A DNA stretch of 64,000 nt from the NCBI RefSeq assembly GCF_000299415.1, contig NZ_AMPG01000001.1:930001-994000 (forward strand). The letters are read 5' to 3'. The DNA is from Candidatus Microthrix parvicella Bio17-1 (GTDB lineage: Bacteria > Actinomycetota > Acidimicrobiia > Acidimicrobiales > Microtrichaceae). Under the pieces are notes generated by a model that was given only the letters and a program-made list of their open reading frames with translations, was not told where the DNA came from and did no database searches. Shown here in pieces: positions 2,593-5,624 of this stretch; position 1 is the stretch's first letter; the number at the start of each line of letters is the position of its first letter. The position numbers were made by a program, and so were the translations under genes.

Positions 2593-4362
2593 GTGTGGAG
2601 ATTCCTGCCCTCGACCCCCGATCCGGAGGAGCTGAAGGAACTCGGACGCGCCACCCGCGAGGTACTTCTGGTGTCGGCGCTGGTCGGCGCCCTGGCAGGT
2701 CTGGCCGCAGTCGTCTTCGACTGGAGCGTTTTCACGCTGCTGGAACTCTTTCGAGATTTCCCGCTGTGGACCGCGGCGATCATCCCCCCAGCCGGGATGC
2801 TCGCAGCTCACGTGATCATGCGAACGATCGGAGGCGGAGCGTCGCCTTCGACGTCGGACGAGTACTTCAAGCGCTTTCACCAGGAAGGCGGTGTCCTGGG
2901 CGGCAAACCCTTTCGTGGGCGCGTCATTGCCAGCATCGTTGCCCTGGGCACTGGCAACATGCTGGGATTGGAGGGTCCGGCGATCTATCTGGGGGCGTCG
3001 GCCGGCTCCACCGTGCAACGCCGTCTGCCCAGGCTCTTCGGACGGATCGATCATCGCCTGTTGCTGGTGGCGGGGGCGGCCGGCGGCGTTGCCGCAGTGT
3101 TCCGCGCGCCGGCCACAGGCGCCATCTTCGCCATCGAATCCCCGTACCAGGGTGACCTTGCCCACAGTTCCCTGCTGCCGGCTCTGATCGGTGCGTCGAC
3201 GGGCTACGTGACCTTCTCGATCATCCTCGGAAACGAACCGCTGTTTCCCGTCACCGGTCCGGCCGATGTGATGGTGCCGCAGTTGGCCATCGCGCTGCTG
3301 GTGGGCGCCTTGGCCGGGCTGGTCGCCCGATGGGGTGCTTCCGCTATCGCGCTTGCCAAGCGATTGTCGACCCGGGGACCCGACTGGCGGCGCCTGCTGC
3401 TGGCCGGCGTGGTCATCTCGGGCACCAGCGTCGCGGTGCGTATGGCCGCCGACACGTCCGGCGTGCTCGGCCCCGGCTACGGCCTGGTGAATTGGGCGCT
3501 GGAGGACAACCGTGCGATTTGGGCCTTGGTGGTGATCCTGGTGGCCAGAAACCTGGGAACGGCGGCGGCGGTCGCAGGGGGGATCCCAGGTGGCCTGTTC
3601 GTACCACTCGTCGTGGCAGGCGCGCTGCTGGGCCGCCTGACGGGCGAGTTGATCGGGTCAAACAACAGCACCTTGTTTCCGGTGATCGGCATCGCCGCCG
3701 TGCTCGGCGCCGGATACCGGGTGCCGCTGGCTTCGGTGATGTTCGTGGCCGAGACCACCGGACGACCCGGCTTTGTGGTTCCAGGCCTGCTCGCCGCGGT
3801 GGCGGCCGAGTTGATGATGGGTAACCACAGCTTTACCGCCTACCAGAAGAAGGCGCAGTTGATCGCCGGGCAGCGTGGCGGCCTTGGTGCCCAGCGGGCG
3901 ATCGAACCATTGAGCAGCGACGGTTCGGACGTGCCACCGCCCGGAGGTGCCCCTCCAGCCCGGCGACCGCGACGCACCGGAGACACACCGATTTCCGAGG
4001 TACCGGCACGTCCGGCCGCCGGCGAAACGTCGCGCCCCAAGCTGGTGGACCAGCGCAACGACACCTCCGAGATCCAACAACTGGCCACCGGCGGGGTCCG
4101 CCAGTCCACCGGCGAGGTGCGTCACCTCACCGGTGAGATGAAGACCATCACCGGGCAGGGTCAGGTGGAGGGTCCAGCTCCGGTCGAGGCCACCGAACTG
4201 CCCGCCGTTGAATCACCGCTTCCGCCCGCCGCGCCACCGCCGACGCTGCCCGGCGAGGTTTCACGCCGGGGCACCCGTCCATGGATCGCACACGACGAGG
4301 GCGCAGCCACCGCCGACGACGAGCCCAACGATCCGTTCCCCGAAGACTTCGACCACACCTGA
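2593..4362 (+). CDS. ClC-family chloride channel or H+/Cl- antiporter with long hydrophilic tail
   Basis: Integral membrane anion channel or exchanger. Residues about 25-415 hold the ClC helices: GLEGP (125-129, carrying the gating Glu127), APATGAIFAIE (172-182, with a glutamate near the internal proton-glutamate position), GGIPGGLFVP (329-338) and YRVPLASVMF (375-384). CBS domains, common in this family, are absent. Residues 430-589 form a long Pro/Thr/Glu-rich soluble tail with repeats of a TGEV/TGEM type around 500-520, unlike known ClC tails. GTG start at 2593, divergent from the methyltransferase operon across 85 bases. Whether it is a channel or an antiporter cannot be settled by reading. 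Confidence 0.87.
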   Translation: MWRFLPSTPDPEELKELGRATREVLLVSALVGALAGLAAVVFDWSVFTLLELFRDFPLWTAAIIPPAGMLAAHVIMRTIGGGASPSTSDEYFKRFHQEGGVLGGKPFRGRVIASIVALGTGNMLGLEGPAIYLGASAGSTVQRRLPRLFGRIDHRLLLVAGAAGGVAAVFRAPATGAIFAIESPYQGDLAHSSLLPALIGASTGYVTFSIILGNEPLFPVTGPADVMVPQLAIALLVGALAGLVARWGASAIALAKRLSTRGPDWRRLLLAGVVISGTSVAVRMAADTSGVLGPGYGLVNWALEDNRAIWALVVILVARNLGTAAAVAGGIPGGLFVPLVVAGALLGRLTGELIGSNNSTLFPVIGIAAVLGAGYRVPLASVMFVAETTGRPGFVVPGLLAAVAAELMMGNHSFTAYQKKAQLIAGQRGGLGAQRAIEPLSSDGSDVPPPGGAPPARRPRRTGDTPISEVPARPAAGETSRPKLVDQRNDTSEIQQLATGGVRQSTGEVRHLTGEMKTITGQGQVEGPAPVEATELPAVESPLPPAAPPPTLPGEVSRRGTRPWIAHDEGAATADDEPNDPFPEDFDHT

Positions 4363-4447: not shown

Positions 4448-4804
4448 TCAGCCGCCGAGCAACTCGCGGATGCGCTCCTTGGGACGACCGATGATGGCGG
4501 TGTCGCCAACGACCACCACGGGTCGTTGCATGATCATCTTGTTGGCCAGAATCGTCTCGACGATCTGATCGACGGTCGACACGTCGGCGTCGGTCAACTC
4601 CAGCTTCTTGAAGAGCGCGTCGCGCCGCACCAAAGCGGTCGGCTCGTCCTCCAGCTTGCCGAGAATGTCGCGAAGGGTCGCCTCATCAGGCGGCTCCTTT
4701 CGGTAGTTCACCGCGACGTAGTCCACTCCAAGTTCCTCAGCAATGCTCACGGCATTGTTGGAGGAGCCTCAATTGGGGTTGTGATAGATGGTGACGTTGG
4801 CCAT
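4448..4804 (-). CDS. ArsC-type arsenate reductase-like selenoprotein (TGA at codon 12 read as selenocysteine)
   Basis: Reading from ATG 4804 gives 118 residues with one in-frame TGA at codon 12 (4771-4769). The context is YHNPN-TGA-GSSNN, exactly where glutaredoxin-type ArsC (plasmid R773) has YHNPxCGTSRN. The other ArsC active-site residues fall at the same numbers as in R773: His8, Arg60 (ALVRR), Arg94 (QRPVVV) and Arg107 (GRP). The frame is intact to the stop at 4448. A SECIS-like hairpin begins just after the TGA. The family reduces arsenate through the residue-12 thiol; here a selenol would do it. Unlike R773 ArsC it stops near residue 118, so an ArsC-like or Spx-like redox role is also possible. 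A caller treating TGA as stop would start at GTG 4750 and lose the active site. No selA, selB, selC or selD lies in this window. The alternative is a nonsense mutation of a Cys codon. Confidence 0.82.
4734..4771 (-). promoter_or_regulatory. Putative bacterial SECIS element next to the TGA codon
   Basis: After the TGA (4771-4769) the minus-strand RNA can fold into a stem-loop. CAAUGC (4757-4752) pairs perfectly with GCAUUG (4746-4741) around the 5-base loop CGUGA. The stem then continues through one A-C mismatch, two more pairs, a single bulged C and four further pairs (4765-4762 with 4737-4734). The loop starts 18 bases after the TGA and has G as its second base. A short apical loop with an early G at this distance is the pattern known for SelB-recognised bacterial SECIS. 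All of it is inside the coding sequence and is translated. Confidence 0.72.
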
Positions 4805-4868: not shown

Positions 4869-5624
4869 TCAGCCACCAGACCCATCCGTGGCGGAGCCCT
4901 TCCCGGCGTCCGCATCATCGCCTGACTTCTCCGGCCGTTCGGGCCGCTGGGCTTTGAGATCCTCGGCCTTGGAGCGGACGGCGTCGGCCTCCTTCTGATC
5001 GATCGTCCCGGCGTCAACCGCGGCGCTCAGCGTCTCATCCAGCGCCTTGGTGCGTGCGGCCTCACGCGCCTCCCTGGCCTTGGTGCGCTCGGCCTCCGTC
5101 GGCCGGTCGCCGGCCGCAGGTCGGTCAGCTTCGGCTGGACGCTCCGGGCGATGCTCGACGAACAGCTTTCGCAACGCCGTCGCCTGATCATCGGTGAGCG
5201 TGCCGTCGTCCACCAGTGCCTTCAAGAAGCCACCCCTACCATCGCGGCCGCCCGGACCTCGATCGGCACCCGGACCCCGACCGTGTGGGCCACCGCGATC
5301 GCCCTCGCACCGACCCGGACCCCCCGCATCGGCGTCCCCATCGGCATCACCGGGGTGGTCTGCGGTTGCGTCGGCATCGCTCTTTTCGTCCGACCCCGCC
5401 TTGGCGCTGGTGGTTGGCGACGAGGCCGCCGACGGTTCGGTACCACCGGTCAGTGCGCCCGCCACCGGACCGCCCAACACGGCGCCCAACGCCAACAAGC
5501 TCGCTCCTCCCACCATGCCGACGGCCATCCGCCCCTTGGTAAATCCGCGCCGACCCGTCTCGGGACCCGCACCGGATGCGGGCTCATCAAGGTCGTGGTC
5601 GTGGCTGTCTGAACCGGGTTGCAT
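4869..5624 (-). CDS. Membrane-anchored charged protein of unknown function
   Basis: Not recognised as a named family. From ATG 5624, preceded by a strong AGGAGGAG ribosome-binding site, it has 251 residues: a polar N-terminus, a single hydrophobic Gly/Ala segment at about residues 30-60 (ending GALTGG) that can be a signal anchor or signal peptide, then a long Asp/Gly/Arg-rich low-complexity stretch. The C-terminal part has two helical segments of one pattern, DGTLTDDQATALRKL and AGTIDQKEADAVRSK, like the short repeats seen in secreted actinobacterial proteins. It lies divergent to a two-component system across 171 bases and 64 bases upstream of the ArsC selenoprotein on the same strand. A link to envelope sensing is inferred from context only. 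Confidence 0.7.
   Translation of the reverse strand: MQPGSDSHDHDLDEPASGAGPETGRRGFTKGRMAVGMVGGASLLALGAVLGGPVAGALTGGTEPSAASSPTTSAKAGSDEKSDADATADHPGDADGDADAGGPGRCEGDRGGPHGRGPGADRGPGGRDGRGGFLKALVDDGTLTDDQATALRKLFVEHRPERPAEADRPAAGDRPTEAERTKAREAREAARTKALDETLSAAVDAGTIDQKEADAVRSKAEDLKAQRPERPEKSGDDADAGKGSATDGSGG

Follow-up and report, generated by a model that had tools for sequence, protein, structure and literature searches.

Is a TGA codon within a small gene of Candidatus Microthrix parvicella Bio17-1 a stop, or does it encode the catalytic residue of an arsenate reductase? The gene lies in a 64,000-nucleotide stretch of the genome, which we will call the window. If the TGA is read through, the protein resembles the glutaredoxin-linked arsenate reductase ArsC, with the TGA in place of the catalytic cysteine. 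Our analysis of the sequences indicates that this ArsC-family reductase very probably has selenocysteine (Sec, or U) at catalytic position 12. What the enzyme reduces is a separate question, which we consider afterwards.

A reading frame interrupted only at the catalytic codon

The initial annotation placed the gene at 4448-4804, which is correct; the strand, which it did not state, is minus. (The plus-strand translation of 4448-4804 does not give an ArsC-type protein.) The features of the locus are:

4448..4804, minus strand: Sec-ArsC gene, with ATG at 4804-4802 and terminal TGA at 4450-4448; 118 residues with U12
4769..4771, minus strand: in-frame TGA at codon 12 (predicted Sec), in the column of the catalytic Cys12
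4448..4750, minus strand: GTG-started open reading frame of 100 amino acids without the active site, from the standard list of open reading frames
2593..4362, plus strand: neighboring gene for a ClC-type chloride channel, with no match beside the loci of 92 relatives

With codon 12 read as U, there is a single open frame of 118 residues, intact on either side of the TGA as had been claimed, and the protein begins with MANVTIYHNPNU-GSS. A TAA four codons upstream of the ATG bounds the start region. The terminal TGA, in this gene and in many relatives, comes after the last conserved residues. The standard list of open reading frames contains only the part after the internal TGA, starting from the GTG at 4750, so the initial annotation rightly warned that conventional annotation loses the active site. 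Because this standard reading removes the active site, surveys of arsenic genes may miss the catalytic residue.

The protein belongs to the ArsC family

With C substituted for U, the protein matches PF03960 (ArsC) at 53 bits, versus a gathering cut-off of 24, and it is the only PF03960 member that we found in this genome. It also matches the arsC equivalog model TIGR00014 nearly end to end, again with C for U, but at 90.5 bits, which is below the curated cut-off of 106.05. A glutaredoxin-family profile is marginally above its cut-off (26.4 versus 22.9 bits). Profiles for the Spx and YffB branches of PF03960 match weakly, with lower scores than arsC.

As reported initially, H8, R60, R94, and R107 are all present (these residues and position 12 are numbered as in R773 ArsC). 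The three arginines are invariant in 37 of 37 aligned proteins, including the window's, and the three arginine motifs are present in all 80 named loci that we examined (the best 80 of at least 386 relatives). So the catalytic residue 12 and the three arginines that go with TIGR00014 arsenate reductases are in place, with Sec for Cys.

The predicted structure of the protein is of high confidence (pLDDT 94.8). The top-ranked solved folds are ArsC proteins: 3rdw, with a TM score of 0.85, and E. coli ArsC entries, with 0.81-0.83. (We take structures 1i9d, 1jzw, 1sk0, and 1s3c to be of the R773 enzyme.) Spx structures also match, with TM scores of up to 0.82, so the fold alone does not decide whether the protein is an arsenate reductase.

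Selenocysteine machinery in the genome

The genome assembly (4,202,850 bases in 13 contigs, 95% complete) contains all of the components that the initial annotation had proposed looking for. SelA (394.5 bits) and SelB (262.6 bits) are encoded next to each other, and both are over their cut-offs, as is SelD (345.6 bits). There is one tRNA-Sec, with a score of 67.8 bits versus a gathering score of 47 (the same model is also above its cut-off in 5 of the 14 genomes used as controls). ARAGORN classifies this same tRNA as tRNA-SeC with the anticodon tca.

SelD (L017, G000:C3:23101-24048) carries one in-frame TGA, in GAG-U-ACKLG, and is itself a candidate selenoprotein. That makes at least two candidate selenoprotein genes in the genome. 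We also noticed that in the window's order, the SelA match to TIGR00474 mostly starts only at position 53-70, and that SelA in many other members of the class matches from position 1-2. The N-terminal part of SelA seems to have diverged in the window's order.

In relatives, codon 12 is either TGA or cysteine

We drew 198 genomes from the Acidimicrobiia (the class sample) and accepted homologues at E values of 1e-8 or better. Homologues were found in 67 of these genomes, 65 of which have a readable codon 12. (In G162 and G178, the match is near a contig end and begins past residue 12.) Codon 12 was TGA in 19 genomes, with 21 genes, and Cys in 46; in the 65 readable genomes, we saw nothing else at this position. 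We rejected as Sec a TGA in G107, G110, G184, and G197 and a TAG in G131, which are at the end of the match, past the last conserved residues.

SelA is present in 134 of the 198 genomes. It was found in 19 of 19 genomes with Sec-ArsC and in 26 of 46 genomes with Cys-ArsC (Fisher p = 0.00025; the genomes are related, so this value is only a guide). Within a single genus (code g9), G051 has the Sec form and a match to SelA, and G019 has the Cys form and no match to SelA. All four other genomes from the window's family have Cys; G095, G177, and G190 lack a match to SelA and G087 has SelA.

Among named genomes, we considered the best 80 of at least 386 confirmed relatives, a choice which favors close relatives. 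Codon 12 is TGA in 75 of these 80 loci and Cys in 5 (that of L168 was assigned by eye), and the matched stretches of the 80 have no other internal stop. These loci include one from the isolate Ilumatobacter nonamiensis YM16-303 (L103). The named and class sets overlap, as L104, L135, L159, and L160 seem to lie on contigs that also supplied loci to the class set.

Thus, relatives carry TGA or Cys at the column of the catalytic Cys12, as the initial annotation suggested checking. It had also named two findings that would count against Sec, namely missing Sec machinery and relatives with random stops or frameshifts, and we found neither.

A tree of 145 protein rows and 117 columns requires no fewer than 8 switches between the Sec and Cys states, but its well-supported branches force only 2 of them; many forks in this tree are unresolved. 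Nine of the Sec genes (L038, L048b, L049, and L050-L055) form a second Sec branch, in a region of the tree where Sec and Cys genes are mixed. Two genomes, G187 (L048) and G169 (L051), each have two Sec-ArsC genes, which belong to different branches and are separated by about 8 and 2 kilobases, respectively.

A candidate SECIS hairpin just after the TGA

In bacteria, the stem-loop that directs Sec insertion (SECIS) has been modelled as having an apical loop 16-37 nucleotides from the UGA, an upper stem of at least 4 base pairs, and a G within the first two positions of the loop (PMC13188914). The window has a candidate that agrees with this model, with a 6-bp stem and the loop CGUGA at +18, whose second base is G:

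4741..4757, minus strand: candidate SECIS apical hairpin, CAATGC-CGTGA-GCATTG, whose loop begins 18 nt after the UGA
4734..4765, minus strand: the same hairpin with a predicted lower stem, TCCTC/GAGGA, a prediction from the window's sequence alone

Most relatives have a hairpin with the loop CGUG(A/C) at +18 after the UGA. All six pairs are formed in 69 of 81 distinct Sec segments, a set that leaves out the second Sec branch; with that branch included, the count is 70 of 89. When the Sec segments were resampled synonymously 200 times, the number with all six pairs averaged 0.66 and was never above 4. In the same register, none of 51 distinct Cys segments forms all six pairs. For 39 of these 69 segments, a count of the pairs gave 100% pairing, with one compensated pair (L168).

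The wobble bases of the hairpin are also fixed, contrary to the usual codon choice of these genes. Ile21 is encoded by ATT in 68 of 69 cases, versus 42 of 461 isoleucine codons from codon 29 on in the 75 named Sec genes. Similarly, Asn17 is encoded by AAT in 68 of 74 cases, versus 24 of 73 in that downstream part of the named genes. A permissive SECIS scan finds stems of at least 6 bp in 14 of the 51 distinct Cys segments as well, so it is these frozen wobble bases that carry the weight. In the nine genes of the second Sec branch, the permissive scan found no common hairpin. The folding stability of the window's own segment is unremarkable (z = -0.59 for 57 nt and -1.89 for 42 nt), and 5.7% of its synonymous variants are equally stable.

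Ten of the twelve Sec segments that remain from the set of 81 form another hairpin instead (L161-L164, L167, L169, L029, L037, L048a, and L051a). This hairpin is CC(T/G)T(G/A)GC-GGTC-GC(C/T)(G/A)(A/C)GG, and its loop begins 24 nt after the UGA, or six bases further downstream than the loop of the window's type. Pairing holds in 70 of 70 cells, and two of the pairs are compensated; for versions of the hairpin shifted along the sequence, the paired share is 30-69%. (The hairpin came from a search of these very sequences, and its pairing is therefore not an independent test.) The ten segments correspond to a starred clade in the tree. Neither hairpin fits the last two segments, L155 and L045. We slightly favor the explanation that the SECIS moved within one lineage of this selenoprotein gene, with the signal replaced in place and the protein and the Sec codon kept. 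If so, these genes would be a natural series for studying how well SelB tolerates changes in the position of the SECIS.

Selenocysteine or another reading of the TGA

The machinery, the exchange of TGA and Cys at a single column, the conserved candidate SECIS, and the presence of SelA in each class-sample genome that carries Sec-ArsC together make the decoding of codon 12 as Sec a strongly supported prediction. We also considered other readings of this codon. By ordinary rules, the gene stops at codon 12, as would be expected for a pseudogene or for an error in sequencing or assembly. That the same codon is TGA in most of the named loci and in the 19 class genomes, with the frame intact and the protein sequence conserved to either side and with SelA in each of the 19, leaves this explanation a negligible probability, and we reject it; the same-codon pattern of TGA or Cys across relatives excludes a chance TGA. 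Nor is it credible that TGA is recoded throughout the genome (such as to tryptophan) or is read through leakily, for which we see nothing beyond the in-frame TGA itself. This gene and many relatives also end in a TGA stop, the alternative residue at the column of codon 12 is always Cys and never Trp, and SelA, SelB, tRNA-Sec, and SelD are present, so we reject general recoding. Finally, translation might begin at the GTG at 4750 and yield a 100-residue protein without the active site. The open reading frame exists, but its product would miss the first strand as well as the catalytic residue, and relatives conserve the residues ahead of the catalytic column, so we consider an internal start to be extremely improbable.

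Does the enzyme act on arsenate?

We propose that SelB and tRNA-Sec would decode the UGA at codon 12 as Sec, directed by the stem-loop just downstream, to give a thioredoxin-fold reductase of the ArsC family. The selenolate of Sec12 would then attack an oxyanion that R60, R94, and R107 keep in place. With arsenate, the product would be a seleno-arsenate adduct, to be resolved by a redoxin and a low-molecular-weight thiol, the latter probably mycothiol. The resulting arsenite could be exported by Acr3, which is encoded elsewhere in the genome. Mycothiol is suggested as the resolving thiol because MshC is probably present: the candidate scores 414 bits, below the cut-off of 485.

On balance, we favor arsenate as the main substrate. 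The three arginines are invariant, ArsC folds rank first, and this is the only PF03960 gene found. Also, elsewhere in the genome (L077 8408-10416; G000:C1 at about 1276.4-1278.4 kb), genes for an ArsR-family regulator, ArsI/CadI, and Acr3 are clustered, without an arsC among them. Taken with the probable MshC, these observations make arsenate reduction by Sec12 plausible. (Further fragments of Acr3, in more than one piece, are at C1:1173772-1174183 of this genome. Another Acr3 match, at G067:C22:8292-9245, contains a single in-frame TGA; SelA has no match in that genome, and the Acr3 gene is perhaps a broken copy.)

The genomic context does not link the gene to arsenic. The ClC-type channel lacks a match beside the loci of the 92 relatives, so we do not consider it to be part of the system. 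Of seven genes of the window other than Sec-ArsC, one of them at 4869-5624, none had a match beside those 92 loci except for one carboxyltransferase hit. We found no conserved operon around Sec-ArsC; the recurrent clusters of neighbors are small or resemble shadow open reading frames. Within 3 kb of 80 relatives (several of whose loci are cut by contig ends), we found 354 open reading frames of at least 100 residues, and none of them was a match to the Acr3, ArsR, or ArsI of the window's genome. Nor does the ArsC family co-occur with arsenite export across the class. In the class sample, Acr3 was in 14 of 67 genomes with ArsC and in 22 of 131 without it (p = 0.56), which is no association, and it was in 5 of 19 Sec genomes. 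ArsB was in just 2 of the 198 genomes, neither of which has ArsC. The one gene of the LMW-phosphatase family that we found in the window's genome could encode an alternative arsenate reductase.

So we also considered that the protein might be a thiol or selenol oxidoreductase with the ArsC fold, Sec at the active site, and a natural substrate other than arsenate. It might be a glutaredoxin-like deglutathionylase or demycothiolase, or it might reduce another oxyanion; the decoding of the TGA would be the same and only the chemistry would differ. We consider this to be possible, if somewhat doubtful. It would fit with the lack of ars genes among the open reading frames near relatives, the lack of association with Acr3 and the rarity of ArsB, the score under the arsC equivalog cut-off, the glutaredoxin-family match slightly over its own cut-off, and a fold that is common to other members of PF03960 such as Spx. 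Against it, all three of the R773 oxyanion-binding arginines are invariant in the 37 aligned proteins, with matching motifs in every one of the 80 named loci (the best 80 of at least 386), and the genome has an acr3 cluster without arsC.

The initial annotation had described Sec12 as the selenol of an arsenate reductase. Selenocysteine at the catalytic position is strongly supported, given the machinery, the Cys column, the candidate SECIS, and SelA. The identity of the protein as an arsenate reductase is less secure: the missed TIGR00014 cut-off (90.5 versus 106.05 bits), the lack of ars neighbors among the open reading frames tested, the lack of co-occurrence with Acr3, and the match to the Spx fold count against it.

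Comparison with known systems

Arsenate reductases with Sec have been predicted before. A 2005 survey of the Sargasso Sea gives 14 arsenate reductase selenoproteins with a UxxS motif and names one of them in a figure on predicted SECIS elements; its findings are said to implicate selenium in arsenate reduction (PMC1088965). In 2008, the GOS survey listed, as "ArsC 1" under pfam03960 with UxxS, 77 Sec and 784 Cys sequences (PMC2398784). Reviews from 2022 and 2026 repeat the UxxS family and also list an ArsC-type selenoprotein with UxxC (PMC9312934; PMC13188914), and the latter describes nearly all of the such proteins that it lists as largely uncharacterized in function (PMC13188914). The initial annotation's statement that these proteins had been predicted only rarely is therefore out of date, as there were 14 sequences in 2005 (PMC1088965) and 77 in 2008 (PMC2398784), and Sec-ArsC is common in the set that we searched. 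Titles and the openings of abstracts, from a search that most subscription papers lay outside, gave nothing on Sec-ArsC in Acidimicrobiia or on assays of the enzyme. The terms "selen" and "arsen" are absent from the main text that we examined on Candidatus Microthrix parvicella.

So the family is not new, and the window's gene is a well-anchored further member of the predicted Sec-ArsC family. It ties a family of selenoproteins from ocean metagenomes to a near-complete genome with Sec machinery. Sec-ArsC is common in the Acidimicrobiia that were sampled, including in a named isolate, Ilumatobacter nonamiensis. Because there are natural pairs of Sec and Cys forms, one of them within a single genus with and without SelA, the benefit of selenium to the reductase is directly testable. 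The two registers of the SECIS are a further lead.

Compared to the glutaredoxin-linked ArsC of R773 and E. coli, the window's protein is alike in fold (TM scores of about 0.81-0.83) and in having H8, the catalytic position 12, R60, R94, and R107. It differs in having Sec for Cys12, just 26-27% identity, and a shorter C-terminus, and its gene is outside of any ars operon and in an actinobacterial thiol context. The Spx and YffB branch of PF03960 shares the fold and matches the protein's sequence weakly. The motif of Spx is CxxC; the window's protein has UxxS, retains all three of the ArsC arginines, and scores lower against the Spx and YffB profiles than against arsC. NF041106, the arsenate reductase-like selenoprotein, is also of the ArsC type, but it has UxxC instead of UxxS, and it is not among the NCBIfam matches of the window's protein up to E = 0.1.

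The closest counterpart is the "arsenate reductase, UxxS" family of the two surveys, as they describe it: it belongs to the same ArsC family (COG1393/PF03960) and has UxxS, homologues with Cys, and a predicted SECIS after the UGA. In both surveys the family is metagenomic, while the window's gene is in a near-complete genome with the Sec machinery. And unlike in those two surveys, here the Sec or Cys state was compared to the presence of SelA across genomes.
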